From assembly GCA_016235185.1 (NCBI GenBank), contig JACRLT010000005.1, positions 1-64,000 on the forward strand: 64,000 nt of DNA, written 5' to 3'. Position numbers and translations under genes: made by a program. The DNA is from Candidatus Omnitrophota bacterium (GTDB taxonomy: Bacteria > Omnitrophota > Gorgyraeia > Velamenicoccales > Velamenicoccaceae). The number at the start of each line of letters is the position of its first letter. Positions within the stretch are counted from its first letter, which is position 1. The notes under the pieces were generated by a model, which was given only the letters and a program-made list of their open reading frames with translations, searched no databases and was not told where the DNA came from. Of this stretch, positions 1-12,929 are shown piece by piece.

Positions 1-54
1 AGAAAGGGGCTTCAATAAACTATTGGGTAAACTGATCGTTACAATATTTCTCAT
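1..54 (-). CDS. Partial CopG/RHH-like antitoxin N-terminus (runs off left edge)
   Basis: An ATG at 54 follows a strong Shine-Dalgarno (GGAGG, 66-62) and opens 18 codons to the window edge, reading MRNIVTISLPNSLLKPLS. This is the typical N-terminal beta-strand of a ribbon-helix-helix DNA-binding protein. A consensus promoter lies just upstream (76-104). The neighbouring RHH/RelE operon suggests a second toxin-antitoxin unit, but only 18 residues are visible, so the family is tentative. Confidence 0.45.
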   Translation of the reverse strand, partial: MRNIVTISLPNSLLKPLS

Positions 55-75
55 GGGTTATGCCTCCTGTATTAA

Positions 76-104
76 ATTGTAATACAAATCGCTTCGTTTG
101 TCAA
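76..104 (-). promoter_or_regulatory. Sigma70-type promoter of the left-edge gene
   Basis: On the minus strand TTGACA (104-99), a 17-nt spacer and TACAAT (81-76) form a near-consensus promoter about 20 nt before the Shine-Dalgarno of the edge gene. A palindrome GTGTAA-ATTC-TTACAC (106-121) just upstream of the -35 is a possible operator. Confidence 0.6.
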
Positions 105-120
105 GTGTAAGAATTTACAC

Positions 121-142
121 TTCCGATGCGGGTTCGGAAAAG
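121..142. repeat. 22-bp direct repeat, copy 1 (left of RHH/RelE cassette)
   Basis: TTCCGATGCGGGTTCGGAAA plus AG is repeated exactly at 753-774. The copies bracket the toxin-antitoxin operon, and each lies just upstream of a TTGACA -35 box on the minus strand. TTCCGA/TCGGAA arms make each copy a small hairpin. A decayed third copy (about 16/21 matches) sits at 976-996. Confidence 0.7.
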
Positions 143-152
143 CTCCATTTTT

Positions 153-431
153 TTAATAGGCACTACCGCGATGATCAATAGTCAGCATAAAGACTATTTT
201 TTTGTGGCCGTCCGTTGTATAAAAGAATCGATAATCGCCTATCCGGTAGCGCCAGGTTTCAAGCCGATAATTTGAGAGTTTCTTTATATTCTTGCCAAAA
301 TACGGATTTTGTTTTAGTTGAGGATATACATAAGAAGCAAGTTTTCTCTTTATCCGCTCCTGCTGGCCGCTGAAGTTTTGTTCAAGGTCTTCTAAGAATT
401 GGCCTGTCTCAAAGATCCTAAAGTCATCCAA
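153..431 (-). CDS. RelE/ParE-family toxin (mRNA interferase-like)
   Basis: A 92-residue basic protein of RelE-superfamily size. Its C-terminal half (LETWRYRIGDYRFFYTTDG, then KKIVFMLTIDHRGSAY) matches the RelE core: the R-x-G-x-Y/F-R strand pair and the closing hydrophobic strand with I-D-H-R. RelE toxins cleave mRNA in the ribosomal A site, although ParE-type gyrase poisons share the fold and cannot be excluded. The start overlaps the end of the antitoxin gene by 8 bp, implying translational coupling. It should form a tight complex with that antitoxin and co-repress the operon. Confidence 0.85.
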   Translation of the reverse strand: MDDFRIFETGQFLEDLEQNFSGQQERIKRKLASYVYPQLKQNPYFGKNIKKLSNYRLETWRYRIGDYRFFYTTDGHKKIVFMLTIDHRGSAY

Positions 432-666
432 TGAATCTTCCCCGCATTTTCTTTGCGTCGCGATGGCCGGATTCCAATTTCTTTAAGAGTTTCTTATCCG
501 ACTTGATCTGGGCCATCTCAACGGGGTCTACGTAGTAGGATTCTTCTATATCTTCCAGGACTTCGGTGGTGATAAAGTTGGAAATGGGACGATGCTCGAT
601 CCTTGCCGCGGCTGCTATTTTCTCGTATTCTTCTTCCGATAGACGCAATGTGATCACTTTAGACAT
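424..666 (-). CDS. RHH antitoxin partner of RelE-like toxin
   Basis: An 80-residue protein. Residues 1-45 (SKVITLRLSEEEYEKIAAAA, then RIEHRPISNFI) form a ribbon-helix-helix DNA-binding domain. The acidic then basic C-terminus should wrap the toxin. It is the first gene of the pair, overlapping the toxin start by 8 bp. A Shine-Dalgarno (GAGGAGG) precedes ATG 666 and a consensus promoter lies at 717-745. Autorepression through AT-rich half-sites around the -10 is inferred from the family. Confidence 0.85.
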   Translation of the reverse strand: MSKVITLRLSEEEYEKIAAAARIEHRPISNFITTEVLEDIEESYYVDPVEMAQIKSDKKLLKKLESGHRDAKKMRGRFIG

Positions 667-716
667 CCGGCAAATACCTCCTCGTAAGTGTATTTTATTC
701 TTTTTTATTCAAATAT

Positions 717-745
717 ATTCTAATATATTTTTCACTATTTGTCAA
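717..745 (-). promoter_or_regulatory. Promoter of RHH/RelE operon
   Basis: TTGACA (745-740), a 17-nt spacer and TAGAAT (722-717) on the minus strand. The -10 sits in the near-palindrome ATATATTAGAATATATT, a plausible RHH antitoxin operator. Confidence 0.65.
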
Positions 746-752
746 GGGTGCT

Positions 753-774
753 TTCCGATGCGGGTTCGGAAAAG
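753..774. repeat. 22-bp direct repeat, copy 2 (right of RHH/RelE cassette)
   Basis: Exact copy of 121-142. The similarity extends across the adjacent TTTGTCAAG motif (97-105 and 738-746), i.e. into the -35 box of each flanking promoter. Confidence 0.7.
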
Positions 775-914
775 TTCAAAACTCCTCTGCGGATATTTCT
801 AACCACTCCAGGATCGCCTTTTGCATTTATCGATCACCCATTTGTAAAATTATTATTACTGTTTTCCTTTAAGCGAACAAATTAATTGTGATGCAAATTG
901 TTTCGGATTGCGGC

Positions 915-969
915 ATTCGCGCTTCGGATCGTCTTATTTCCTTCCTGCATAAATGGATATGTCCCTATT
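915..969. repeat. Imperfect direct repeat, left copy (DUF4258 cassette)
   Basis: Begins ATTCGCGCTTCGGATC and contains GCATAAATGGAT and TGTCCCTATT. The same order of words recurs at 1631-1690 with a few substitutions and a short insertion. The two copies bracket the DUF4258/zinc-finger pair. Confidence 0.65.
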
Positions 970-1053
970 AATCTTAATGTGGGTTTGGGAAAGCTCATTC
1001 CCGTCTCGTGTTTCTTGACATTCACTGACCATTCTGTTATGATTCCTTTTTAG

Positions 1054-1362
1054 ATGCTCAAGCAAATACGAGAAAAATTTGATACTGGCCAGTTTCAAAT
1101 TACCAGGCATGCCTTGAGACGCTGCGATACCAGAGGTATATCGCTGGCCGAAATTAAGAAAGTTATTTCTGACGGCGAGATTATCGAAAACTACCCCAAA
1201 GATTCTCCATATCCAAGCTGTCTTATTTTGGGCTATACGCACAAAAACGAACCTCTTTATGTCTTGTGTGCCCTTGGGAATCTCGTTCATATTGTCACCG
1301 TCCATTGGATAGATCCGGCAAAATGGCTGGATCCAAAAACTCGGAGGGAGAAAGTGTCATGA
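1054..1362 (+). CDS. DUF4258 protein, putative toxin
   Basis: A 102-residue protein with the DUF4258 pattern: an N-terminal helix, F-x-I-T-R-H-A-x-x-R (residues 14-23), the I-S-x-x-E-I helix, then strands ending in VHIVTVHW and DPAKW. The family is RelE-like in fold and commonly paired with YgiT/MqsA zinc-finger antitoxins, as here: its stop overlaps the next start (ATGA). Toxin activity is inferred from family and context. Nothing indicates truncation. Confidence 0.8.
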   Translation: MLKQIREKFDTGQFQITRHALRRCDTRGISLAEIKKVISDGEIIENYPKDSPYPSCLILGYTHKNEPLYVLCALGNLVHIVTVHWIDPAKWLDPKTRREKVS

Positions 1363-1583
1363 AAAACATCTTGTGCGCGCAATGCGGAGGAAAATTGCAT
1401 AAACAGAAAACATCCCTTGACCGCATGACTGAAGGGCATCTTTATCTCTTTGCGGATGTATCTGTCCAAGTTTGTGATCAATGTGGAGAAATTTGGATCC
1501 CAGGCACTTTGGCAGAGCGAATGGATCAGGCCATTCAAGGAAAGATTAAGCCCAAAAAACTCATTCCAGTACCGGTCTATTAG
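1359..1583 (+). CDS. YgiT-type zinc-finger antitoxin (MqsA N-domain-like)
   Basis: A 74-residue protein starting at ATG 1359, preceded by GGAGGGAG and overlapping the toxin stop by 4 bp. Two C-x-x-C pairs (CAQC at residues 6-9 and CDQC near residue 41) form the zinc-binding site of YgiT-type antitoxins. There is no C-terminal HTH domain, so unlike full-length MqsA it may act mainly by binding the toxin. The I-P-G-T-x-A-E motif after the second zinc pair is typical of the family. Confidence 0.8.
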   Translation: MKNILCAQCGGKLHKQKTSLDRMTEGHLYLFADVSVQVCDQCGEIWIPGTLAERMDQAIQGKIKPKKLIPVPVY

Positions 1584-1630
1584 TTTTTTTATTCTGTCCG
1601 CCATTCAGCCGTCTCTAATCAAATCTCGAT

Positions 1631-1690
1631 ATTCGCGCTTCGGATCTTCTTATCTTCTTCCCGCATAAATGGATGTGTGTTGTCCCTATT
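1631..1690. repeat. Imperfect direct repeat, right copy (DUF4258 cassette)
   Basis: Counterpart of 915-969. Both lie outside the two-gene unit. A related fragment of the TGTCCCTATT end occurs in reverse near 5080-5095. Confidence 0.65.
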
Positions 1691-1752
1691 TTTAAGCTTT
1701 TAAAAAACATGCCCTTCCGATTTCAATTTTCAATGCCTGGCCCAAAAGATGA

Positions 1753-2940
1753 CTAAAGAGCAACAAATTTTCCATAATTTTCTTTTATTCCGACCAAATC
1801 CAACCATCTCGCAGAAAGCCGGTTTCTAATCATCTGCTTTCTTATTGTATAGGTTTTGTAGCATTTCATTATGCCGAGGTATGAGTTCATGCTGCTTATA
1901 AACCGGTCCTTTTCTTCATCATCCGGTTCGTGATTGCGAATGACTTTGTTGTGTTTCTCCAACGACTGATAAAAGCTGCCTTTGATGCGATTAGCAATAT
2001 AAATACGATATGGTTTTATATAAGCCCCCAAAAACAAGAATCCTGACTCATAATGATTAATTTTTGTTTTATTGGGATGTAAAGTAAGCTGCCCACTCTC
2101 TTTCAGGTAGGCTGTAATCTCAGGCAAAGCGGCTAATAGACGGGTTTTATCGTGATGCATGACAAAAAAATCATCCACATAGCGTCCATAATATTTAAAC
2201 CCCAACTTTTTCTTCATCCAATGGTCAAAATCATTCAAAAAGATATTGCCAAAAAGCTGGCTGGTGAGATTTCCTATAGGCAGACCGCAGCCCTGAGAAG
2301 AATAAAATAGGCTTTTATTTGCGGGCAGTCCGCCCCAATCTGACGCTGATCCTTTAATTATACAATTATCTACCGGATTGCGAAATATTGTTCTCTGCAA
2401 CAGAAAATCAACCAGGCCTATATCAAACTGTATAACCTTACCTGATAAAGCGCATTTTTGATATTCCGTTTCTAACATGCCTGTTACTTTATGATACAAG
2501 AGTTCTCTGTTGATGCTCATAAAATAACCTGAAATATCCATTTGCATGATGTAGCAATCTTTTTTATAGTTTTCAGGGCAGGAGCGCAAAAACTTTGCCG
2601 CCCTTTGAATACCAATGCTTGTGCCTTTGCCTTTACGGCACGAATAGCAATCGTAAATAAGGTATTTTTCAATTATAGGCTCAAGGTATCCAAATAAAAG
2701 ATGGTGCACCACTCTATCTCTAAAATCTGCGGCAAATATTTCGCGTTTTATTGGTCTGTTTACAATAAAGGCTATTTCACGCGAGGGTTTATAACTACGG
2801 GTTTCTATTTCATTATGCAGTTTAAAGATTTCGCGTTCAAAATTTAATTCGAACTTTAATTGATTGATGGTGTTTCTCTTATTTTGCCGCGCATTGTAAT
2901 AAGCCCGAAACAAATCGGCGATTAATTGTGTATTATCCAT
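1753..2940 (-). CDS. Diversity-generating retroelement reverse transcriptase
   Basis: About 395 residues. Catalytic motifs are visible: the first aspartate in QMDISGYF, and YVDD (about residues 254-257 from this start). Just before YVDD, LPIGNLTSQ carries the I-G-x-x-x-S-Q signature that separates DGR reverse transcriptases from retron and group II intron enzymes (Q-G-x-x-x-S-P). The enzyme makes adenine-mutagenised cDNA from the template repeat for transfer into the variable repeat. It lies directly downstream of avd. I prefer the ATG at 2940 (AAAGGCGGCA before it, 8-bp overlap with avd) over the ATG at 2955, which lacks a Shine-Dalgarno. The gene appears intact. Confidence 0.95.
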   Translation of the reverse strand: MDNTQLIADLFRAYYNARQNKRNTINQLKFELNFEREIFKLHNEIETRSYKPSREIAFIVNRPIKREIFAADFRDRVVHHLLFGYLEPIIEKYLIYDCYSCRKGKGTSIGIQRAAKFLRSCPENYKKDCYIMQMDISGYFMSINRELLYHKVTGMLETEYQKCALSGKVIQFDIGLVDFLLQRTIFRNPVDNCIIKGSASDWGGLPANKSLFYSSQGCGLPIGNLTSQLFGNIFLNDFDHWMKKKLGFKYYGRYVDDFFVMHHDKTRLLAALPEITAYLKESGQLTLHPNKTKINHYESGFLFLGAYIKPYRIYIANRIKGSFYQSLEKHNKVIRNHEPDDEEKDRFISSMNSYLGIMKCYKTYTIRKQMIRNRLSARWLDLVGIKENYGKFVAL

Positions 2941-3307
2941 TGCCGCCTTTGTCATTCAAGACGCTTTTGTTTACGGATTTTTTCCAACCGCTAAGCTGTT
3001 TACTTATGCTTTCTATTAATACGTTGAGCGCGATCATTTTTTTAATATTTATTTGCCGCAAGTCATGCAGCAACCGTATAAGCAAACGGACTGTTTCAGT
3101 ACTCTCTCTGCAACTATCTATTTCCATTTCCTTTGCCCGGCTAAGATTGGTTCTATATATTTTCAGCAATAGCTCAAGGGTTTCGTTTTTCAGTTTTTCT
3201 CCAACAGTATATTTATACTCGCGCGACAAACCGGAAGTCATTTTATAGATCTCTATCAATAAATCATATCCTTTTTTAAAAACCGGTAAGGTATCATACA
3301 TCGCCAT
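2933..3307 (-). CDS. avd: DGR accessory variability determinant (Avd)
   Basis: A 124-residue, largely helical, basic protein related to the S23 four-helix-bundle family, as known for Avd. Avd forms a pentameric barrel that binds the reverse transcriptase and template RNA and is required for mutagenic homing. Position supports the call: it lies between the template repeat and the reverse transcriptase gene, overlapping the latter by 8 bp. The start ATG 3307 has AAGG at a 6-nt spacing; an in-frame ATG at 3301 is the alternative. Confidence 0.9.
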   Translation of the reverse strand: MAMYDTLPVFKKGYDLLIEIYKMTSGLSREYKYTVGEKLKNETLELLLKIYRTNLSRAKEMEIDSCRESTETVRLLIRLLHDLRQINIKKMIALNVLIESISKQLSGWKKSVNKSVLNDKGGNG

Positions 3308-3349
3308 AATTTACCTTAATAGAATAGGAGGATTGGCAGTTTTGTTTTA

Positions 3350-3532
3350 CAGTCTCTGAGACAACGAATACTAAAGCCATAAGCCTTATTGTTGTTGTTC
3401 ATGTTGCTGTTGCCGCTGTTGAAGTTCAGGTTCCAGCCGTTGGTAGCACTGTACTGAGTACTGCTCCAGTAGAAGCCGCCCGAGCCTCTATTGTTCAGCA
3501 CGCCATCGCTGTCGTTGAGGTAGCCTGCGGCA
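3350..3532 (-). repeat. DGR template repeat (TR)
   Basis: 183 bp aligned without gaps to 3721-3903 (166/183 identical). Read on the coding strand, TR is rich in AAC/AAT triplets, giving an Asn-rich virtual peptide. Every one of the 17 mismatches is an adenine in TR replaced by C, G or T in VR, the hallmark of DGR mutagenesis. The last 40 or so bases at the 3' side contain adenines but no changes, as expected for the homing initiation region. The open reading frame through TR is probably not a protein gene. Confidence 0.97.
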
Positions 3533-3562
3533 AAACAGCCCAATAAGTTGCCGCTTTACATG

Positions 3563-3669
3563 TGAATACACACAATTTGCGTGTATTCATCTTTTTTTGC
3601 TTTCGGAAAACCGAAAGCGGGCAACCAGACTATAATCTGCGCGCTAATCGAAACCAGTAGTTTCGATTA
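3563..3669 (-). other. Three perfect hairpins between VR and TR
   Basis: Stem 1: TGAATACAC/GTGTATTCA, 9 bp, loop 3572-3580, with a T7 tract on the plus-strand side (3592-3598). Stem 2: GCTTTCGG/CCGAAAGC, 8 bp, 4-nt loop, 3599-3618. Stem 3: TAATCGAAAC/GTTTCGATTA, 10 bp, 5-nt loop, 3645-3669. They lie 3' of the target stop codon and 5' of TR. Short hairpins after VR promote homing in known DGRs; that role here is inferred. Confidence 0.7.
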
Positions 3670-3719
3670 CTCCGGCATTTCACTTCCTGCCAATCCTAAA
3701 TTGTCAAAGAATCAAATTG

Positions 3720-4877
3720 TCAGTCTCTGAGACAACGAATACTAAAGCCATAAGCCTTATTGGTGCTGACCATGTAGCTGCCGCCGCTGGAGAAGTACAG
3801 GTACCAGCCGGCGGTAGCACTGTACTGAGTACTGCTCCAGTAGAAGCCGCCCGAGCCTCTATTGTACAGCACGCCACCGCTGACGTAGAGGTAGCCTGCG
3901 GCATGGAGTTTTAAAACATCAGTAAAAGTTTCGTTATAATCATCCCAACCTCCAACTTGACCAGTTGCATCTGCATTAGTCCATTCTGCAGAAGTGGGCA
4001 AGCGCCAGCCTGCGCCAAGCAATATGGTACAGGGATCGTTGACTGAAGTCCAATCGCTGGATTCATTAATTGAAGTAATAGTCCAGGACGGTGTAGGCCC
4101 AACTGCATAGCCCTGCTTACGGTTAAACTGCCAATACCAACCAGCAGAGGCATCTGTAGCATCTGTAGCTGAACTTGCCTGATTAGCAGCGCCAAGGTTT
4201 TGTTTTATCCAGCATTTACTCGCTCCCGAAAGAGAGCTAGTAACAGTCCCGTAAGTAATGGTTGTTGTAACAGGTGCTACAGCGCCGGCAGTGTGGTTAA
4301 CGTTAGCCAAGTTATTCCCGCAGGCCCACGCCCAAGTCGACGCTGTCAGAGTGATAGTCATGGTTTGCTGGCCTTGCGAAGAATCAGAGGCTGGCGATGT
4401 AAACGCAAGGCCGAGCTTAAAGTTAGCGCCAGCCGGTAAACTCGTATAAAGGGTCTTAGACGTTGTCTCGTCTAAAATAAGTGCGTCATCGTTTTTGGCT
4501 TTAAGGACAAAGGCATTAACCCCGCTGGATGCCTCGGCAGTCCAATTGCCCGATGACACCACAGTAGCGCTGATATTTTCACTACCGTCCGATGACCCTG
4601 TTATCGTCCAATACACGTCGCCTGTATCAGCGCAATTGACATCCGGCGCTGTGCCGCAGCTATAAACCGTCTGTGCGGCTTTGATCAAACCGATATCCCA
4701 GGAGGTAATTGACCCCGCGCCTACCTTGGTACCGGTAACAGAGACCTCAACGCCGGCAGCGAGGGCGGAACCAGAGAACAGAGGACAGAGGACAGAGGAC
4801 AGAGAACAGAGAACAGAGAACAGAAAAAATATAGGACCTAAACTTTTTCTAAAAAAGATTTTCATCGGATTCTCCAT
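3720..4877 (-). CDS. DGR target: secreted lectin-fold (Fib_succ_major/FGE-like) variable protein
   Basis: 385 residues. Residues 1-40 are a signal peptide (basic start, hydrophobic core, cleavage near SALA-AG), so the protein is exported. The middle is Ser/Thr/Ala-rich with beta-sandwich character. From about residue 215 comes a C-type-lectin-like domain of the Fib_succ_major/DUF1566 group, with GAGWRLPTSAEW as its landmark. The last 60 residues are the variable repeat; 13 of them differ from the TR-encoded residue, mainly Asn to Tyr, Ser, Gly, Val, Thr or Ala. Start ATG 4877 follows AGGAGG. The likely role is a diversified surface or secreted ligand binder; the ligand is unknown. Confidence 0.93.
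   Translation of the reverse strand: MENPMKIFFRKSLGPIFFLFSVLCSLSSVLCPLFSGSALAAGVEVSVTGTKVGAGSITSWDIGLIKAAQTVYSCGTAPDVNCADTGDVYWTITGSSDGSENISATVVSSGNWTAEASSGVNAFVLKAKNDDALILDETTSKTLYTSLPAGANFKLGLAFTSPASDSSQGQQTMTITLTASTWAWACGNNLANVNHTAGAVAPVTTTITYGTVTSSLSGASKCWIKQNLGAANQASSATDATDASAGWYWQFNRKQGYAVGPTPSWTITSINESSDWTSVNDPCTILLGAGWRLPTSAEWTNADATGQVGGWDDYNETFTDVLKLHAAGYLYVSGGVLYNRGSGGFYWSSTQYSATAGWYLYFSSGGSYMVSTNKAYGFSIRCLRD
3721..3903 (-). repeat. DGR variable repeat (VR)
   Basis: Codes for residues 326-385 of the target. Homology with TR ends at GTCTCAGAGACTG on the coding strand; the next base makes the stop codon TGA here but TGT in TR, a one-base distinction between the VR and TR ends. GTCTC-A-GAGAC is itself a small palindrome at the homing end. 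Confidence 0.97.
4773..4827. repeat. Heptamer array encoding the target's signal-peptide core
   Basis: Seven consecutive 7-bp words: AGAGAAC, three AGAGGAC, three AGAGAAC, then A-rich sequence (plus strand). Because 3 x 7 = 21 = 7 codons, the minus-strand reading yields a 7-residue hydrophobic period (LFSVLCS, LSSVLCP). Confidence 0.85.
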
Positions 4878-4970
4878 TTTTGCCTCCTGGCGACCTTCTG
4901 ATATAAGCTTATATTAATTCCCGAAATTTATCTATCCGCAAACATACCTTATTTTCCTGCGCAAAGTACT

Positions 4971-5066
4971 CTATTCCGTTATAAACAAATCATCAGCTTT
5001 AGAAAGCTCAATAATTCTTTCTGCAATAATTCTTCTCCTATGCCTTCTTACCAAAATCTTTTTCAT
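4971..5066 (-). CDS. Small basic ORF, 31 residues, doubtful
   Basis: ATG 5066 to TAG 4971 reads MKKILVRRHRRRIIAERIIE then LSKADDLFITE. A weak AAAGGGA precedes the start. It may be a genuine small gene, or the remnant of a longer one left between the DGR and the nucleotidyltransferase pair. I recognise no family. Confidence 0.25.
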   Translation of the reverse strand: MKKILVRRHRRRIIAERIIELSKADDLFITE

Positions 5067-5098
5067 GATAGATCCCTTTGAATTAGGGACACATCCCA

Positions 5099-5272
5099 TT
5101 ATTTGATAGAAAATTGGGTATTAACACAAAGCACCTTTTTCTGACACCTGCCAGCGGTTATATCAACCGTATATCTTAAATTAAAGAGAACAAATCGTAG
5201 GTAGTCATCCATCTTGATCGCCTTGGACCGCGAAAAATCCTTCCTAATAATCGGAAAATTCAATCGTTCCAT
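5099..5272 (-). CDS. Small partner of nucleotidyltransferase, unknown function
   Basis: A 57-residue protein with N-terminus MERLNFPIIRKDFSRSKAIK followed by MDDYLRFVLFNLRY. The ATG at 5272 lies one base after the upstream stop codon, indicating tight coupling. Similar small ORFs often accompany stand-alone nucleotidyltransferase genes. An antitoxin-like or HEPN-like partner role is possible but not shown by any motif. Confidence 0.6.
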   Translation of the reverse strand: MERLNFPIIRKDFSRSKAIKMDDYLRFVLFNLRYTVDITAGRCQKKVLCVNTQFSIK

Positions 5273-5273
5273 C

Positions 5274-5825
5274 TCACTCACCTTCGCATGCCTCAAGAAT
5301 TTTGTGATAAATTTCAGGTGTGCCGTATTTCAAGCACACTGCCTTAAACCTCTCCTCTTTAGCGTCAATCTGGTTTATTTTTATCAAATTGATGATATCG
5401 CTGATATCCTTGGCAAGACGCTGGGCTTGATTGTGTTTAATGGCGTGCAGCTTCATGGCAATCAAATTTTCCAATGAAGGGACGCGCAATCGGCACCCGG
5501 CTATCTCGGTCGTTGGGCTGTCTTCAAGAATTTTGCCAAGCGTCTCCTCGTCAACAAACATAAAATCAATATCCATCATCAAAAAATCGCCTTTACCGAA
5601 AACAAGCCTCACAAAAACATCTTGACGGCTTTCTACCGTATAACCCGCTGATCCTAAAAAAGGCAATATTTTTTCAAAGTCTCTCTTAGTAATAAGAAAA
5701 TCGACATCCAGGGTCTGCCGGGCATATTTATAATAATTAAGAGCAAACCCGCCGATTAAAACAAAACGAATATTTATCTTCTTAGAAATGTCCGACAACA
5801 AATCAAATACACTCTGATAACTCAT
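5274..5825 (-). CDS. MNT/AbiEii-like nucleotidyltransferase
   Basis: 183 residues from ATG 5825 (GCAGGG upstream). The nucleotidyltransferase core is visible: VLIGGFALNYY (G-G) followed by R-Q-T-L-D-V-D, giving the D-x-D metal pair, with a later acidic MDIDFMF strand. This fold transfers nucleotides to RNA, protein or small molecules; members of toxin-antitoxin systems AMPylate or CMPylate their targets. The reading frame is open to 5906, but that would overlap the preceding gene, so the internal ATG is preferred. Confidence 0.75.
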   Translation of the reverse strand: MSYQSVFDLLSDISKKINIRFVLIGGFALNYYKYARQTLDVDFLITKRDFEKILPFLGSAGYTVESRQDVFVRLVFGKGDFLMMDIDFMFVDEETLGKILEDSPTTEIAGCRLRVPSLENLIAMKLHAIKHNQAQRLAKDISDIINLIKINQIDAKEERFKAVCLKYGTPEIYHKILEACEGE

Positions 5826-5836
5826 AACCCTGCGTC

Positions 5837-6409
5837 CTATTTCTTGTCCTTTGCCTTTTTCTTTGTATTCTTTACACGATCTTCTTTTTTCTCGGTTGTT
5901 ATCCATATCTGCGCTTGAGCCGCAACGACAAACATCTCGCCTTCATTATTCTTCTTTGACTTTACCTCTAATATAGCCATGTATTTTTTATCGGCGTATT
6001 GTTTTTTTTGAGGCACTAAAACATACAACTCCACCTCACGAGTGGCGAAAGCATCTATGCGGATCTCCTTTTCTTCAGGGACAACCCAGGAAACATCCGG
6101 AATATCCTGATATCCGAAGGCCAAGGGACTCGTCGTCTTTGAAACAGGCAGGATAGCTATTGTAAAAGTATAAGCGCTGTCACTCTTATTCGTTATCTGG
6201 ATTTTTTTATGCTCGGTGGAATATTGCGACATGGCAGTTTTTTCCCCCAGCGGCACGTCTCTGACGGAGACGCTCCCGGGATTTACTGCAAGCCCCAGCG
6301 CAAAACACAAACAAGGGATCCCGAAAATAAAAAAAGCGGCCGCAGTCATTAACGCGTGCCGCAAACAAAAAAAAGACCCGCTTCTTGTTTTTGTATTTGA
6401 TCTTAACAT
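5837..6409 (-). CDS. Secreted Ig-fold protein (pilus chaperone/DUF916-like)
   Basis: 190 residues. A signal peptide at residues 1-38 (hydrophobic AAAFFIFGIPCLCFALG) is followed by a beta-rich domain: GLAVNPGSVSVRDVPLGEK, KKIQITNKSDSAYTFTIAI and later paired strands, resembling bacterial Ig-like periplasmic chaperone or DUF916 domains. The C-terminus is strongly basic and charged (about 30 residues of K/E/D/T). It ends 11 bp before the nucleotidyltransferase start and may be co-transcribed. A role in binding surface or pilus proteins is only a guess from fold. Confidence 0.6.
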   Translation of the reverse strand: MLRSNTKTRSGSFFCLRHALMTAAAFFIFGIPCLCFALGLAVNPGSVSVRDVPLGEKTAMSQYSTEHKKIQITNKSDSAYTFTIAILPVSKTTSPLAFGYQDIPDVSWVVPEEKEIRIDAFATREVELYVLVPQKKQYADKKYMAILEVKSKKNNEGEMFVVAAQAQIWITTEKKEDRVKNTKKKAKDKK

Positions 6410-6498
6410 CCTGCCCTCCGCATCATTGGTTTCATAATTTTATCGTAACTACTTGCAGATAAAAGACTTTTATCCCTAATAGTAGAATTTAGACCGAC

Positions 6499-6524
6499 AA
6501 AAAAACCACCCTTTAACAAGGTGG
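6499..6524 (-). terminator. Rho-independent terminator after the AbiE pair
   Basis: On the minus strand CCACCTT-GTTA-AAGGGTGG (one bulged base) is followed by T7. It sits about 125 bp past the antitoxin stop at 6650. Confidence 0.8.
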
Positions 6525-6649
6525 CTGATAGCTGTATTTTCTTTCTTAGGAGGACTCAAGATAAATGATCCTTCTTAATATTTATTTCTATGTTTCCATT
6601 ATAATATAAAATCCTGAAACTTCAACAAAAATATTTTTAAAAACGCGTA

Positions 6650-7270
6650 TTACGCCTTTAGCAATTCTTTCAATCTTTGGCGGACGCGCGCTTTTATCTT
6701 CCTGTCCGAAATTTTTCCTGCCCATGCCCGAGCCCTTGCAAAACTAAAAGAAGACGGAAAATACAATTCCGGAAAATGCCCGAATTGCCTTTTCTTGCGC
6801 GCAGACAAATATAGGCAATCAACCAAAGCCTTCTCCGGCTCTGCAATAAGGAAATCTCCTGACTCTCTATACCAATGGAACCCGCAAAAAAAAGAAGGCT
6901 GTATCTGATGGATGGCAAACGTACCGAGGGATGTCCGAATAACCTTTGAATGCGTTGTGGAAGCAAGTGTAATAGTCTGGGGTATCTGTTCAATGATGCC
7001 GTAAAGATGCAAGGCGCTGATAAAAGAAACATACGCGCGCTGCCTAGGCAAAAGAAAAGGTACGAGTTTAAAAGGGCTAAGTTGCTGGTGTCCGCTTTGG
7101 GCCCATAGGCCGCGAGAGAGTTTAAAAATAAAACCCTCCCTCTTTAGAAAATTAAGCGATTGAACCGTTGCTGACAGAGATCTACCGCAAAAATTAGCTA
7201 AGTCCCGAGTTGTAAATACGGGGCTCGTGATCTTTCTAATGAATTCCAAAACAGGCCTTTTCCTAAGCAT
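6650..7270 (-). CDS. AbiEi-like antitoxin/transcriptional regulator
   Basis: 206 residues. Residues 1-55 form a winged-helix domain (TTRDLANFCGRSLSATVQSL, then NFLKREGFIFKLSRGLW) as in AbiEi/type IV TA antitoxins. Residues 65-200 contain the AbiEi C-terminal region, including YVSFISALHLYGIIEQIP and a late AEPEKALVDCLYLS block. AbiEi represses its operon and counteracts the nucleotidyltransferase AbiEii. It overlaps the toxin stop by 8 bp and is the second gene here, reversed from the usual abiEi-abiEii order. Confidence 0.85.
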   Translation of the reverse strand: MLRKRPVLEFIRKITSPVFTTRDLANFCGRSLSATVQSLNFLKREGFIFKLSRGLWAQSGHQQLSPFKLVPFLLPRQRAYVSFISALHLYGIIEQIPQTITLASTTHSKVIRTSLGTFAIHQIQPSFFCGFHWYRESGDFLIAEPEKALVDCLYLSARKKRQFGHFPELYFPSSFSFARARAWAGKISDRKIKARVRQRLKELLKA

Positions 7271-8042
7271 CGGGCTTACCTAACTCGTCGATAAAATCAG
7301 CTGCCCTTAATTTGATCTCATCCCAATAGGCTTGCCGATCATACAAAGCCTGGTCGTCAGAAGCCAGATATGAAACAACGGTGTCTCGAAATTGCTCAAA
7401 ACTAACATCAAATATCCTCTCATGGGCTTTAACAAGATTGCCGCCTATTACGCGGCTGTGTGGGCCGATCTTCATATCTTTGCATTGCGAACTTAAAATG
7501 TATAGATCAAAGATGTCCCTGGCCTGAAGAGACGGCCTCAAAGCGATCGCCTCGATCTTCTGGAGTATTGCTGATCGAACATCATAATGCGGAACCAGCA
7601 ATGGGGCCAGCTTATAATCGCGCAAGAGTGTATTAGACACCGATCCAAACTCAATGCCCTTCTTTAAACCACGGCGGGAAAATTCGACTTTTGTAAATAG
7701 ATCTTCCCCTGCCGAAGTAATAAGATGGATCTTAAACCGCTGTGTAGTAAAAGTCTGTTTTGCTTTGGTTATATCCGGCGGGATGACGGCATCGATACCG
7801 AAGGTTTTAAGATGTCCCTGGAAAGAAGCATTCACGATCGTTTCCATAACAATATCCTTCACTATATCGAGCCTCACGCCGCCTATATCAAGATCCATGT
7901 CTTCGGAATACCGAAGGCTTTTATAAAAGAAGCGCAGATTAACCCCGCCCTTCAAGGCAAAAATATCGGCTTTAACCCTTCGGCTAAACCACCGAAGGAA
8001 TTCTAAATGAAAAACCTCTCGCTGCTGAAGGAAGTTATACAT
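7263..8042 (-). CDS. AbiEii/AbiGii-family nucleotidyltransferase toxin
   Basis: 259 residues. The catalytic signature is clear: FALKGGVNLRFFY then RYSEDMDLDI (G-G and D-x-D, residues about 29-53). A conserved LVPHYDVRSAILQKIEAIAL and ARDIFDLYIL block follows. AbiEii homologues block tRNA or translation by nucleotide transfer and cause abortive phage infection. The ATG at 8042 lies at or within 2 nt of the predicted transcription start, so the message may be leaderless. Confidence 0.87.
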   Translation of the reverse strand: MYNFLQQREVFHLEFLRWFSRRVKADIFALKGGVNLRFFYKSLRYSEDMDLDIGGVRLDIVKDIVMETIVNASFQGHLKTFGIDAVIPPDITKAKQTFTTQRFKIHLITSAGEDLFTKVEFSRRGLKKGIEFGSVSNTLLRDYKLAPLLVPHYDVRSAILQKIEAIALRPSLQARDIFDLYILSSQCKDMKIGPHSRVIGGNLVKAHERIFDVSFEQFRDTVVSYLASDDQALYDRQAYWDEIKLRAADFIDELGKPDA

Positions 8043-8050
8043 AATTATGT

Positions 8051-8079
8051 ATTATAATTTAGGTATATCTAAATTTCAA
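8051..8079 (-). promoter_or_regulatory. Promoter with operator palindrome inside the spacer (AbiE operon)
   Basis: Minus-strand TTGAAA (8079-8074), a 17-nt spacer and TATAAT (8056-8051). The palindrome AATTTAG-N6-CTAAATT (8056-8075) fills the spacer. A winged-helix AbiEi bound there would block RNA polymerase. Confidence 0.65.
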
Positions 8080-8113
8080 TACATATTTAATCTATATCGC
8101 TCTTAAGGAAGAT

Positions 8114-8764
8114 TTAGAAGCCTTCGATGTCAACGATCTTGTTCTTTATGGCGTACTTGATCAGGTCGCTCGTCTTGTGGAGGCCGAGTTTTTTTAGGAT
8201 ATTATTTTTATAATTTTCTGCGGTCCTTGCGCTGATGAAGAGCGCATCCGCTATTTCCTTTGCCGTCTTGCCTTCTGCCACAAGGCGCAAGACCTGCTCT
8301 TCGCGTTCGCTCAATATCTTCTCCTTTGCCAATTCTTGCGGGCTCTTGCTGGCCTTTTCCAAAAGATATGTCGATACGTCCGCGCTTAAATAGATCTGTC
8401 CGGCGGTGATCTTGCGAAGCGCAGGCAAAAGGTCGTCAGCGGCATTCTCTTTGTTCAAATACCCCCGCACGCCCGCTTTGAGCGCCTGCATAACATAGGC
8501 ATCAGCCTTATGCACGCTGATTATCAGGATGCTTGTCTTTTTCGAAAGGCGCTGGATCTGCGAAATGATCTCAAGGCCGCTTTTTTTAGGCATCGTGATA
8601 TCCAATAAAAGGATATCGGGCTTAAGCGATGCCACTTTTTCAAGGACCTCTTCGCCGTCCTGCGCTTCGCCGGCTATCTCATAGGCGGCCTGGTTACGCA
8701 GGATATTCTTGATACCTTCACGGATTATGTCGTGGTCATCAGCAATAAGAATTTTATATGGCAT
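8114..8764 (-). CDS. NarL/FixJ-family response regulator
   Basis: 216 residues. Receiver domain 1-120 has the acidic pair in IADDHD, phospho-acceptor Asp in DILLLDITMP, and switch and lysine positions present (LNKENAADD is slightly atypical around the Lys). A LuxR-type HTH at about 145-210 reads LSEREEQVLRLVAEGKTAKE, then IADALFISARTAENYKNNIL. Its cognate kinase is very likely the HisKA_3 kinase at 9191-10558, from which it is now separated by a four-helix-bundle gene. It is the last gene of the long minus-strand run. Confidence 0.92.
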   Translation of the reverse strand: MPYKILIADDHDIIREGIKNILRNQAAYEIAGEAQDGEEVLEKVASLKPDILLLDITMPKKSGLEIISQIQRLSKKTSILIISVHKADAYVMQALKAGVRGYLNKENAADDLLPALRKITAGQIYLSADVSTYLLEKASKSPQELAKEKILSEREEQVLRLVAEGKTAKEIADALFISARTAENYKNNILKKLGLHKTSDLIKYAIKNKIVDIEGF

Positions 8765-8770
8765 AGTTTT

Positions 8771-8800
8771 GCGTAGAGCTTAGGGCATATGGCTTAGAGT
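8771..8800. repeat. Heptamer array, arm 1 flanking the four-helix-bundle gene
   Basis: GCGTAGA GCTTAGG GCATATG GCTTAGA: consecutive 7-bp words starting GC. It is the inverse-sense counterpart of the array at 9154-9199 across the inserted gene. Confidence 0.7.
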
Positions 8801-8804
8801 AAAA

Positions 8805-9152
8805 TCAAAGACAAGAACGGAAAGCTCTTATTTTTTTAACCAAAAGCTCACTCTCTTGGTACACTTGATCGAACTTATCCTGCGCTAAATAATTCTTCTC
8901 TTTAGCTAAAATCAACCCGGAGACAGTTTCGTAAAGAGACCGTATTGAATAATTCAGGAAACTCTTGAATTCCAGTTTTGAAGAACTCCCTGATCCCTCT
9001 GCAATGTTATTTGATATTGATAACGACGAATTTCTCAACTGGGAGGCTAAGCTATACTGGACCTTTTGAGGGAATTCATCTGTAAAATCGTAAACTTTGG
9101 AGGCATAAGTTATAGCCATCTTCCAAATATCCAATGATTCAAACCTAAACAT
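8805..9152 (-). CDS. Four-helix-bundle protein (23S rRNA IVP / S23 family)
   Basis: 115 residues with the family hallmarks: FESLDIWKMAITYA near the start, QLRNSSLSISNNIAEGSG in the middle and a long helical C-terminus. Proteins of this family were first described in 23S rRNA intervening sequences and are related in fold to Avd. Function is unknown. It interrupts a kinase/regulator pair and is bracketed on both sides by heptamer arrays of opposite sense, suggesting arrival as a mobile unit. Confidence 0.88.
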   Translation of the reverse strand: MFRFESLDIWKMAITYASKVYDFTDEFPQKVQYSLASQLRNSSLSISNNIAEGSGSSSKLEFKSFLNYSIRSLYETVSGLILAKEKNYLAQDKFDQVYQESELLVKKIRAFRSCL

Positions 9153-9153
9153 A

Positions 9154-9199
9154 CTCTACGCCCTATGCCCTTAGCCCTATGCCATACGCCCTACGCTAT
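9154..9199. repeat. Heptamer array, arm 2 flanking the four-helix-bundle gene
   Basis: GCCCTAT GCCCTTA GCCCTAT GCCATAC GCCCTAC GCTATC: strict 7-bp spacing of GC. It runs into the last codons of the histidine kinase. Confidence 0.8.
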
Positions 9200-10558
9200 C
9201 GGCAGCTCAACTTCAAGCCTGGTACCTTTGCCGGGCCGCGACCCGACAGTGAGCTTGCCGCCTAATAATTCAATACGTTCCCTTACCCCCTGTAACCCGA
9301 GTTTTATCTTATCTTCTTTCCTGCGCAGCGGGCGCTTAAGGTATTGCTCATAATCAAACCCTGCACCGTCGTCGGAAACACACAGATAGACATCCTCATC
9401 TTTTTGCTCGAGAGTGACTTCAACATTTTTTGCTCCGGAATACTTGGCGCTATTCGTCAGCGCCTCCTGTGCCACGCGGTAAAGCACCAGGCTGTACTCC
9501 GGCGATAGCCGAAGCTTGGCATCAGGCCTTAAATAATTACAACTGCATCCTGTCAATTCCCGGTGCTGCAGGACTAAAGCAGCTATGCTTTCAATCAAGC
9601 CCAGGTCCTCTAATTCCGGCGGCCGCAGCATCTCGGAAATATTATGCGTTTTCTCCATAAGCGTGTCTAATATCTTTTTGGCCTTGTCTATCTTTTCTCT
9701 ACCATCTGTCAATTCAGCCGGCAGGTCCTTACTGACCAACCCCAGGTATATCTTTAAGGCGCTTAAGTCCTGCCCCATCTGGTCGTGGACCTGCAGGGAA
9801 AGGTTATTGCGCTCCTCTTCCTCTATGCTGATCATTTTGCGGTAAATGAATTCCCTGTGTTCCTTTTCGCGCTTGTTGCGCCGGTATATAAGCAATGCTG
9901 TCTGGCCGCCTAAAAGGAGGCCGATAAGAAGAGACCAGGATAAAAAGGAAATTGACCTCTCCTTGCCGAGCCTTGCGTCTTTAAGCTGCGCCTGTATCTC
10001 CCTAAGATTGAATGTCACCAACGGGTCGTCAAGATATGCATCCACACGAAAAACCTTGTTTTCAAAATCCATGAGCTGCCTGTTTATCGCGGCCTCAATC
10101 TTTTTCCTGTTTTCAGGAGTGCTGGCATCGATCTGTTTAACGGAGGAGGCCACCTTATCACCTATCTGACGCAGCTCCGCCTCATTCGTGCGGATAGTAT
10201 TGACCCAGGTTTTTTGTTCCTGCGCAGCGGCCAAGGCGCTATAGCGCTCAAGCTCTTTGTCAAATTTTTCCGACGTGGAGCGCACAAAATTCAATTTCTC
10301 TCCGAGCGCCGCGGCATCAAGGAATTTTGCCCCCTGCCAGAACATATAACTGCGTATGCCCATGGCGTATTTGGCATTGCTGGATTTCATCTCAAAGATA
10401 GCGCTCTGCGCCGGCACATAACTATTGCCTAAAATATCCACAGCGCGGCTTAGGTTCTGTATCTGTACGATACCAATAAGGCCTACGGCCACGATAAGCA
10501 AAAGCAGGCCGCCGAATCCAATTGCCATTTTCCAATCGATAGTAAAACGCTTGAACAT
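9191..10558 (-). CDS. Membrane sensor histidine kinase, HisKA_3 (NarX/DegS type)
   Basis: 455 residues. TM1 at about 12-32, a periplasmic helical (4HB_MCP-like) sensor at 35-190, TM2 at about 198-218. The phosphorylatable histidine is in EERNNLSLQVHDQMGQDLSA (about residue 255). A HATPase_c domain follows (ALTNSAKYSGAKNVEV as N box, SDDGAGFDYE as G1, LGLQGVRERIELLGG). It should phosphorylate the NarL-type regulator at 8114-8764. It lies downstream of the secretion operon, so it may monitor envelope or secretion state; the signal is unknown. Confidence 0.92.
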   Translation of the reverse strand: MFKRFTIDWKMAIGFGGLLLLIVAVGLIGIVQIQNLSRAVDILGNSYVPAQSAIFEMKSSNAKYAMGIRSYMFWQGAKFLDAAALGEKLNFVRSTSEKFDKELERYSALAAAQEQKTWVNTIRTNEAELRQIGDKVASSVKQIDASTPENRKKIEAAINRQLMDFENKVFRVDAYLDDPLVTFNLREIQAQLKDARLGKERSISFLSWSLLIGLLLGGQTALLIYRRNKREKEHREFIYRKMISIEEEERNNLSLQVHDQMGQDLSALKIYLGLVSKDLPAELTDGREKIDKAKKILDTLMEKTHNISEMLRPPELEDLGLIESIAALVLQHRELTGCSCNYLRPDAKLRLSPEYSLVLYRVAQEALTNSAKYSGAKNVEVTLEQKDEDVYLCVSDDGAGFDYEQYLKRPLRRKEDKIKLGLQGVRERIELLGGKLTVGSRPGKGTRLEVELPIA

Positions 10559-10582
10559 TTTTAATTGGGGGCAGATATTCCT

Positions 10583-11326
10583 CTACTTATCCAGATTCGC
10601 CAGCCACTCTTGAACGGATTCTGCGTCGTCGGAAGTCGGCGAAAGTTCCAGGAACGCGCGGTAGTGAAACCGTGCATTCTCTTTATCCTTAAAATAGTCG
10701 TCAAAAATAATGCCGAGGTTATAGTGGCATGACGCGTTCTTTGGGTTATAGCTCAACGCGGCCTTAAACTCCCTTACTGCGGATTCATAATCTTTGTTCT
10801 GGGAATACAGGACGCCCAGATTATAGTGGTAGCGTTCCGACTCAATATTGACCTTGCCCTTGGACTTGGCAAGCTGGGCTTCCAGCGATAAGATCCTGGT
10901 CTCGTAAAGCTGTTTCTTTTTGTTAAAACTCTTCTCCAGAAGCCCCACATTATCTCGGCCGTCTTTTCTCAAGGCCGCCACATCCTTGCGCAGGCTGTCT
11001 AAGTCGTCATTGGCTGCCAAAGACATCTCCCTTTCTTTCAGGAATGCCTTCTTTACAGCCTCAACCGCCTTGTCAGCCCTGTCTTTTTTCCCGGAGATCT
11101 CCTCTATTTGGCCCAAGAGCCTCTTTTTTTCTTCCAACGCCTTTTCCTTTTCGGTTTTAAGTTCTTCTTTCAGCCGCTTGTTTTCCACCAGGGCGTCCTC
11201 GGCAGTCTTTAAATGCTCCGTGCGCAAAAGCTGATTCTTATCAGACTCGGCCTTATATAAAAAACCGACACCCGCGATTAAAATGATCAGGATGCCGGTC
11301 GTAGCCAAAAAGATAAATTTATTCAT
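10583..11326 (-). CDS. Membrane-anchored coiled-coil TPR protein
   Basis: 247 residues: an N-terminal TM or signal anchor (FIFLATTGILIILIAGVGFL), a long charged coiled coil (about 30-150), then at least two TPR units (YHYNLGVLYSQNKDYESAVR and ASCHYNLGIIFDDYFKDKEN). It overlaps the secretin gene by 8 bp. Position suggests an accessory of the secretion machine, possibly secretin assembly or periplasmic scaffolding, in the manner of TPR pilotins, but no specific family is recognised. Confidence 0.75.
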   Translation of the reverse strand: MNKFIFLATTGILIILIAGVGFLYKAESDKNQLLRTEHLKTAEDALVENKRLKEELKTEKEKALEEKKRLLGQIEEISGKKDRADKAVEAVKKAFLKEREMSLAANDDLDSLRKDVAALRKDGRDNVGLLEKSFNKKKQLYETRILSLEAQLAKSKGKVNIESERYHYNLGVLYSQNKDYESAVREFKAALSYNPKNASCHYNLGIIFDDYFKDKENARFHYRAFLELSPTSDDAESVQEWLANLDK

Positions 11327-12929
11327 CGACTGTTATTTTCTCTCCCTCCAGGCCGCTTTTTATCTTTTTAGTCAGGACCCCGCGGGACTTTACTTCTTCT
11401 CTTTCAGCGTCGACGCGCTCTATGTCTCCGGTTATGATGCGCGGCGTCAAGAAAATAGCAAGCTCCGTTTTTTGCTTCTGGGTATCCTTGTTGCCGAACA
11501 GCCAGCCGACCAAAGGCAGCTTGCCTAAGACCGGAAGCTGGTCGCGCGAATTGCGCGTCTCTTCTTTCATGAGGCCGGCTATCATGATCATTGCCTTATC
11601 TTTGACCTTGACGACAGTTTCAGCCTGTGATGTTTCCACAACAGGCACGGTAGAGCCAAGGGGCGATGTTGCGGTCTCTCTCACCGAGCTGACCTCGGGA
11701 CGGATCTTCATGACTACAAAACCATCGTCGGAGATCGTAGGGGTTACATTAAGCTTAACACCCACATCGACATAATTGACGGATTCTGCAGTAGTCGTCG
11801 TGACGCTGGACTGGCTCTGCGTCTGGGAAAAATAAACCTCCTTGGAACCGATGAGGATACTGGCTTCCTGATTATTGACAACGGCTATCCTGGGACGGGA
11901 AAGGATGTTGGTCTTGGTCAAAGTATTTAAGGCCTGCATAACGACATTAAAATCGTTGGCCGCCAGCGTCCCCACGCTCATCTGACCCAAAGTGCTGCTT
12001 AGGTTGGTTACGGGGAACTTGCCCTTAAAGCTTGTATCCTTAAGTTGCCCGACGTCAAAAAGCCTCTCCCAGTCAATGCCTAACCGCGTGCGGTCATTCA
12101 AGGAGATCTGCACTATCTGCACCTCGATCAAGACCTGCTTGGTCTCGTCGTCAAATGCCTCGACCATTTTTTTTATTCTTTTCATCCTGTCAGGCAGGTC
12201 GCTTATAGCAATTTTGTTGGTCCTTGCGTCAAATTGCATCTGGCTTGCACCGGGAGTCACGACACCGTCCAACTTAGCCTTTATGTCTTCAGCTTTAGCA
12301 TACTTTAAGTCAAATATCTCTGTCTCCTTGGATTGATCCATCGCAATTGCAGCCCGTTCCATAAGTATAAGCGTCTCCGGGACATCGACAAGGATCACCG
12401 TACCCGAAGGCTCATCAACGATGATCTTACCCACATCGCTCTTCAATTGGCCCAAAGCCGTAGACACATCCTTGGGCGAGGCGTTTTTAAGCGAGAACAT
12501 CCTCACCTTGCGCGTCTCCTGATAAGGCTGGCCGTAGAGCTGTTTATATTTATCGACGGGCATGATTGTTATGATATTTTTTTCTTTGACCATTGCCAAG
12601 GCGTTGCTTATCAAGATGATATCTAGCGCGTCTTCAAAAGTCACATTGTTCAAAAATACGTTCACGCGTCCTGTCACATCCTTGGTAGGGACTATATTAA
12701 CATTCATCTTCATTGAAAGGATCTTCAAAAGCTCGATGATATCTACCCCTTTCAGGTCAAGGGAGATCTTGCCCGGCCCGGCATCATTGATAGTTGTAGA
12801 CGGGAGCGGATCAGGAGTGGCGGTAAAATTGCCGGAGACCTCTTCTATCTGGGCCGAGGCGCATGAAAAAAACGCCGCCAAAATAAAAAAGGCAAGGATG
12901 CCGGCCTGTAAACGGATCTGTCTATGCAT
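11319..12929 (-). CDS. gspD: T2SS/T4P secretin (GspD/PilQ-like)
   Basis: 536 residues. Signal peptide (to about residue 27, CASA-Q). An N0/STN-like domain contains ISLDLKGVDIIELLKIL; two N-type ring domains follow (FSLKNASPKDVSTALGQL; FDLKYAKAEDIKAKL). The secretin domain starts near residue 265 (QVLIEVQIVQISLNDRTRLG) and includes SRPRIAVVNNQEASILIGSK and the gate region ending in LPLVGWLFG. It forms the outer-membrane channel. It is shorter than Klebsiella PulD (about 650) because it has fewer N domains. It is preceded by the GspC-like gene with an 11-bp gap. Confidence 0.93.
   Translation of the reverse strand: MHRQIRLQAGILAFFILAAFFSCASAQIEEVSGNFTATPDPLPSTTINDAGPGKISLDLKGVDIIELLKILSMKMNVNIVPTKDVTGRVNVFLNNVTFEDALDIILISNALAMVKEKNIITIMPVDKYKQLYGQPYQETRKVRMFSLKNASPKDVSTALGQLKSDVGKIIVDEPSGTVILVDVPETLILMERAAIAMDQSKETEIFDLKYAKAEDIKAKLDGVVTPGASQMQFDARTNKIAISDLPDRMKRIKKMVEAFDDETKQVLIEVQIVQISLNDRTRLGIDWERLFDVGQLKDTSFKGKFPVTNLSSTLGQMSVGTLAANDFNVVMQALNTLTKTNILSRPRIAVVNNQEASILIGSKEVYFSQTQSQSSVTTTTAESVNYVDVGVKLNVTPTISDDGFVVMKIRPEVSSVRETATSPLGSTVPVVETSQAETVVKVKDKAMIMIAGLMKEETRNSRDQLPVLGKLPLVGWLFGNKDTQKQKTELAIFLTPRIITGDIERVDAEREEVKSRGVLTKKIKSGLEGEKITVDE

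Follow-up and report, generated by a model that had tools for sequence, protein, structure and literature searches.

A diversity-generating retroelement with a reduced cassette and a structured 5' template-RNA leader in a Candidatus Omnitrophota chromosome

We analysed a stretch of 64,000 nucleotides (the window) from a Candidatus Omnitrophota bacterium (assembly GCA_016235185.1, contig JACRLT010000005.1, positions 1 to 64,000), which carries a diversity-generating retroelement (DGR). On the minus strand, the cassette reads target gene with variable repeat (VR), template repeat (TR), avd (accessory variability determinant) and reverse transcriptase (RT). The locus is very likely a bacterial-chromosome DGR of the Avd-carrying kind, for which we propose acquisition from elsewhere, an internal deletion and a structured TR-containing RNA (TR-RNA). 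The DGR itself is of a known kind, of which it is a variant by virtue of its RNA layout and its reduced cassette. We tentatively read this variant, with a probability of about 0.3, as follows: the RNA element responsible for recruiting RT-Avd and for fixing where copying begins would, in cassettes of this lineage, lie mainly 5' of the TR, with one helix (P3) clamping the TR 3' end and another (P1) closing the template loop. Here, with a MutS-like gene gone, the leader adjoins the VR, and two of its hairpins (P2 and P5) would double as the target-site hairpin, one stretch doing both jobs in a minimal cassette.

The TR and VR align on the minus, coding strand over 183 nt without a gap, and the match stops at both ends. 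All 17 mismatches fall at TR adenines (8 A>T, 6 A>G and 3 A>C) and the non-adenine positions are identical (131/131), a one-sidedness with a chance probability of ~5e-10. The substitutions change 13 residues at the C-terminus of the target protein. Our alignment reproduces the gap-free 183-bp repeat pair, the 17 adenine-only mismatches and the 13 residue changes claimed in the original prediction, which had been made from the sequence of the window, and the chance probability agrees with its statement that such one-sided changes are not drift. The majority of the in-frame AAY codons of the TR are altered in the VR. Across all frames, the changes hit 15 of the 26 adenines in AAY context and 2 of the 26 others (p = 2e-4). 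A search for further copies, including the additional VRs that the original prediction had suggested looking for, found no second TR, VR or RT in the assembly (1.79 Mb, 55 contigs, 91.6% complete).

The two closest cassettes, from the Candidatus Omnitrophota metagenome-assembled genomes Modern_marine.mb.185 (L013) and BS750m-G21 (L014), share with the window a homologous TR, the TR-RNA architecture, the target domain and VR changes that are wholly or nearly adenine-only, with 25/26 changes at adenine in L013 and 15/15 in L014. The context bias is also seen in L014, with changes at 15/34 AAY adenines versus 0/25 others. In both the window and L014 it matches the bias measured for the reconstituted DGR of Bordetella phage BPP-1, where AAC is the hot context for adenine mutagenesis (PMC12875486). 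The TR and VR of the window are identical through their last base and then diverge (ACAATTTGATT versus TAAAACAAAAC), at candidate initiation-of-mutagenic-homing elements (IMH versus IMH*). The tail following the VR (ACAATTTGATTCTTTGACAATTT) is unlike the TR flank; it is kept in L013 and partly in L014, and its 13-mer TGACAATTTGATT occupies the equivalent position in L013, L014 and a further locus, L083. There, on an unrelated 73-kb contig, the 13-mer (3002-3014) directly follows the end of a target homologue; this contig may carry a DGR beyond the stretch examined. A 19-mer post-VR pattern gave a single match, on an unrelated AT-rich contig (L084), and was discarded.

The enzymatic part of the cassette is intact. 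The RT carries IGNLTSQ at residues 227-233 and YVDD at 259-262, the former being an instance of the SQ motif, (I/V/L)GxxxSQ, that marks DGR RTs (PMC3521204), and it groups with RTs from cassettes having TR/VR pairs. The assignment of avd by the matches in Table 1, of which phrog_3206 is annotated in PHROG as 'Avd protein of DGR', is joined by a match to NF033474 at 2.8e-13, under the cut-off of that model. Both open reading frames (ORFs) thus hold up as the Avd and the DGR-type RT originally predicted. The reading of the locus as a DGR is likewise supported by the adenine-only TR/VR pair, the SQ-motif RT, Avd and a 3'-terminal VR in the gene of a secreted protein. From this pattern and by analogy with the BPP-1 mechanism, mutagenic retrohoming would have shaped the VR, and it may still go on at present. 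Promoter and terminator scans of the window gave results at chance level.

The target begins with a signal peptide, judged by eye (MENPMKIFFRK...SALAAG), and its C-terminal domain gives only matches below cut-off, to TIGR02145 (2e-6), PF09603 (0.0016) and PF07603 (0.0027). The FISUMP and Lcl_C families, which this domain weakly resembles, are linked with the C-type lectin superfamily. The lectin fold named in the original prediction has these sub-threshold matches as its basis and is a putative one; the target may bind a ligand. A sequence search of the PDB with the target found no relative, and an AlphaFold model built from a three-sequence alignment had a predicted local distance difference test score (pLDDT) of 33 and was not used for the fold.

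Table 1 Features of the DGR and its surroundings in the window.
Feature	Position	Strand	Basis and remarks
DGR reverse transcriptase, 400 aa	1753..2955	-	Intact ORF; phrog_1423 2e-86; 23-nt overlap with avd
avd, 124 aa	2933..3307	-	Intact ORF; PF22296 bAvd 3e-14; phrog_3206 9e-19
TR 3' flank	3329..3349	-	P3 completion (3347-3349); P1 3' strand (3329-3339, CTGCCAATCCT)
TR	3350..3532	-	3' end (3350-3355) pairs with leader as helix P3
TR-RNA 5' leader (P1 5' strand, P2, P3 5' strand, P4, P5, P6)	3533..3697	-	Folds, covariation, z = -5.6
Leader helices	P3 5' strand 3627-3635; P4 3620-3625/3547-3552; P5 3599-3618; P6 3563-3589	-	
MutS-like gene remnant, last codons, frame broken	3645..3697	-	Alignment with L013/L014; fold
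Post-VR tail ACAATTTGATTCTTTGACAATTT, candidate IMH-side element	3698..3720	-	Sequence comparison with L013, L014
VR	3721..3903	-	Alignment with TR; 17 adenine-derived substitutions, 13 residues
Target gene, 385 aa, last 61 codons = VR	3720..4877	-	ORF; FISUMP/Lcl_C-like C-terminal domain
Strain-variable island: DGR and toxin-antitoxin-like genes	1..8042		Synteny; absent there in four same-genus or same-family genomes

We folded the TR-RNAs of the window (3702-3325), L013 (1818-2240) and L014 (4694-5083). The three independent minimum-energy folds agree on helices P1-P4 and P6 (z -6.0, -3.5 and -3.5, respectively). P1 joins the far 5' edge of the leader to the flank just 3' of the TR, P2 is a hairpin, P3 joins leader UUAUAGUCU to AGACUGUAA, which spans the TR end and the start of its flank, and P4 encloses P5 and P6, stopping ~15 nt before the TR. 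In an alignment of the three cassettes, 99.4% of cells are standard pairs and five pairs have changed on both sides, while sliding the partner strand by 1-3 bases reduces pairing to 30-43% and leaves no compensatory pairs. P3 also occurs in three DGRs from viral contigs (L097, L118 and L101), in which its inner end pair is C-G (U-A in the window, G-C in L013 and L014) and another of its pairs, U-G or U-A, becomes C-G. In a more distant DGR (L028, RT 48% identical), the fold follows the same plan with unrelated sequence. The leader of the window is strongly structured (z -5.6), whereas the 144 nt 3' of the TR fold no better than shuffled sequences (z +1.0). The leader has no match in Rfam, and this RNA plan is undescribed in the openly readable literature, subscription papers on BPP-1 RNA structure lying outside that search. 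In L013, a terminator-like hairpin with a T-run (2234-2270) directly follows P1, which suggests from sequence that this TR-RNA ends there as a discrete transcript. Among viral contigs, a leader motif (GCAAAAAAAGATGAATACA) matched three, all of them without an RT, and a longer pattern had no match.

The cassette has lost a gene that both close relatives retain. VR and TR lie 188 bases apart in the window versus 753 in L013 and 810 in L014, where the extra stretch encodes a protein of 176-213 aa matching MutS domain I (E 0.007 and 9e-6, the second passing the Pfam cut-off). Similar genes are present in viral-contig DGRs (L029, L093, L097, L101 and L118). MutS-like accessory genes of DGRs have reportedly been described in a large DGR survey; a search of the openly readable literature found no text on them. 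An intact copy is absent from the window cassette and from its own genome. What remains of the gene is kept as the P1 5' strand (3687-3697) and P2 (3645-3669), and the deletion of ~0.5 kb has its junction between the post-VR tail and the first base of P1. It also took a CCGCGAAGCGG-type hairpin with a T-run, which stands 25-31 bases after the VR in both relatives and has a 4-5 bp GC stem and a GAA loop. Since the MutS-like gene and this hairpin were deleted, the 'complete' element of the original prediction is complete only in its core parts. In L014, unlike in the window, gctcctcagaatgacg-like interspersed repeats lie in the MutS-like gene and the TR-avd spacer (4440-4600 and 5100-5600).

A BPP-1-like GC hairpin after the VR (7-10 bp stem, 4-nt GRNA loop, 4-34 bp off) is not found in the window. 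The stems that now follow the VR are P2, a perfect 10-bp palindrome with three GC pairs and a 5-nt loop at +51, and P5, with 8 bp and a TTTT loop at +102; in the relatives, P2 contains G-U pairs, which are mismatches as DNA. On the basis of their sequence, P2 and P5 are candidate substitutes for the target-site hairpin. Loss of the post-VR hairpin severely, but not absolutely, reduces homing in BPP-1 and in an E. coli reconstitution (PMC3240598, PMC12875486). Because this hairpin was described for phage DGRs and is not strictly required even in BPP-1, its lack does not disqualify the locus as a DGR. Among 73 related cassettes of this RT branch, only 14 have a stem of at least 6 bp within 60 bases of the VR (1/73 after shuffling), and the need for such a hairpin may therefore be weaker in this branch.

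L013 and L014 come from the class of the window genome but from another family. Their RTs are nevertheless 77% (L013) and 75% (L014) identical to that of the window, and their Avd proteins 82% and 73%, while AtpA of the window genome is 56% and 54% identical to that of the respective genomes and its ArgS 47% identical to that of genome G275. Within the L013/L014 family, ArgS and RT identities are 67% and 78%. Since RT identity stays at 75-78% while ArgS drops from 67% to 47%, the cassette seems, from these comparisons, to have been acquired horizontally from another Omnitrophota lineage. Its surroundings, about 1-8100, form a variable island. Four genomes from the same genus or family (G003, G004, G005 and G006) keep the gene order from a secretin to a LuxR-type regulator (window 8114-12929), but nothing at the syntenic place corresponds to the window genes below 8042, save for a weak AbiEii match in G003. 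Among these, G004 belongs to the same genus and gave no RT match. G006, from the same family, has a distant DGR RT (40% identical), which groups with viral contigs; DGRs therefore probably entered this family more than once, as judged from the RT sequences. A global DGR catalogue lists Omnitrophica within the PVC (Planctomycetes-Verrucomicrobia-Chlamydiae) group (PMC8144416).

These observations allow other explanations to be weighed. The two repeats, lying so close together within one locus, could in principle be a duplicated gene end that diverged by drift or selection without any mutagenesis through reverse transcription. This is extremely improbable given that every change is on the adenine side, that Avd and a DGR-type RT adjoin the repeats, and that L013 and L014 show an equal one-sided pattern on different TRs. 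Vertical inheritance of the cassette, with losses in the sister genomes, would be in keeping with the description of DGR clusters as mostly vertically inherited (PMC8144416). We consider it very unlikely here, as the RT identity to another family far exceeds that of AtpA and ArgS in the same genomes, the RT type occurs in just three of several hundred Omnitrophota searched, and it is the whole island that is missing in the sister genomes.

The leader helices might be a by-product of conserved coding sequence, namely the C-termini of the MutS-like and target proteins, rather than a functional RNA: in L013 and L014, P1 and P2 share sequence with the MutS-like gene, the 3' strand of P3 overlaps the target-like end of the TR, and conservation of the MutS-like protein climbs already upstream of P1. 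Yet the stretch is now non-coding in the window and has kept all P2, P3 and P4 pairs, with compensatory changes; P4-P6 lie outside any gene, the deletion stops at the 5' edge of P1, and L028 shows the same folding plan with a leader outside any gene, which makes this explanation unlikely. It is also conceivable, though rather doubtful, that the DGR diversified its VR formerly and has stalled since the deletion, given that both relatives keep what the window has lost and that BPP-1 homing suffers severely from loss of its hairpin. No decay is seen, however: the non-adenine TR/VR positions are all identical, RT and Avd are open, the perfect P2 and P5 palindromes now stand downstream of the VR, and most of the 73 related DGRs do without such a hairpin, which is thus not a universal need. 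Several points weigh against our main reading of an Avd-carrying DGR with a structured TR-RNA. The GC-rich hairpin of the relatives is absent, and BPP-1 homing is severely cut without its own; L093 breaks one core P3 pair; the covariation comes from three close sequences, plus three for P3; and pairing between the leader and the TR 3' end across 73 DGRs shows no excess over shuffled leaders (13.7 versus 13.8 pairs). Because of this last result, we confine the proposed RNA layout to the present lineage; duplexes of the leader with the TR 3' end, compared by energy in 22 DGRs, likewise showed no general excess.

For this lineage, we propose the following mechanism. The RT, together with Avd, would copy the TR-containing RNA into cDNA, misincorporating opposite template adenines, and the mutated cDNA would replace the 3'-terminal VR of the secreted-protein gene, leaving the TR unchanged. 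Through P3 the leader would base-pair to the TR 3' end, and through P1 to the flank beyond it, bringing the two template ends together. The structured RNA would thereby position RT-Avd, with P3 offering the TR 3' end as the point where cDNA synthesis begins, and the P4 junction just 5' of the TR would help to stop reverse transcription.

The phage BPP-1 DGR (mtd-avd-TR-brt; NC_005357) shares with the window a VR at the 3' end of the target, a TR, Avd, an RT and adenine-specific changes with AAC-type hot spots. The gene order differs, being VR-TR-avd-RT in the window, and variable gene order is well known among DGRs (PMC3521204). So does the setting, a chromosomal island rather than a phage. 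In BPP-1, the TR is followed on its 3' side by a 144-nt spacer that reportedly folds and recruits RT-Avd (PMC12875486), whereas the window has 42 nt before avd and shows no structured spacer of the BPP-1 type (~140 nt) there. The viral-contig DGRs L097, L118 and L101 (L029) resemble the window lineage in having a MutS-like gene beside the VR and a P3 helix of leader AGUC with TR GACU, with changed end pairs. They differ in their order, VR-MutS-like-avd-TR-RT, and their RTs are ~41-42% identical to that of the window. The DGR of IMGVR_UViG_2582580686 (L028/L085) likewise has a leader hairpin, a long helix between leader and TR 3' end and a two-hairpin junction, but is arranged RT-avd-TR-target and has a leader without sequence similarity.

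Homologues of the target domain that are 57-62% identical occur in another genome (G240) without a DGR signature, suggesting that the DGR adopted a surface-protein domain otherwise used as ordinary repeats. The G240 locus (C7:63138-68447) holds three such homologues, whose differences show no adenine bias; two of the three lie in a single ORF of ~1100 codons that reaches the contig end. That they belong to an unseen DGR is unsupported, since the copies differ without adenine bias; the contig ends there. Within the signal-peptide coding region of the window target lies a heptanucleotide tandem repeat (4772-4824, 7.6 copies, 95% match) that was not seen in the L013 and L014 targets. One unit more or fewer would put the gene out of frame, and slippage may thus switch the target on and off. 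Near the target or its homologues, three genomes encode homologous proteins of periplasmic type that contain LGEK and EVKS-like stretches (window 5837-6409, L014 1477-2400 and 3915-4457 of the G240 locus), and this conserved neighbour may be part of one surface structure together with the target.

The island further contains an AbiEi/AbiEii type IV toxin-antitoxin-like pair (6650-8042), another AbiEii-like nucleotidyltransferase gene (5274-5906) and RelE-like and DUF4258-type genes (153-1362). Short interspersed repeats flank the toxin-antitoxin-like genes beside the RT (121-145, 753-777 and 972-996; 915-962 and 1631-1678). At 8805-9152, a gene for a four-helix bundle of the 23S rRNA intervening-sequence type, a distant relative of Avd, separates two genes that stand next to each other in four relatives.

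Most of the openly readable biochemistry of DGRs comes from BPP-1, a single phage element in which the 3' side organises the template RNA. A compact 5' scaffold, backed by covariation and base-paired to the template at its 3' end, would represent a second, testable design for choosing where copying starts and stops, and a family of such scaffolds may offer a small platform for targeted protein diversification. If acquired as proposed, the cassette would also show that an entire DGR can pass from one bacterial family to another and that loss of an accessory gene can be tolerated.

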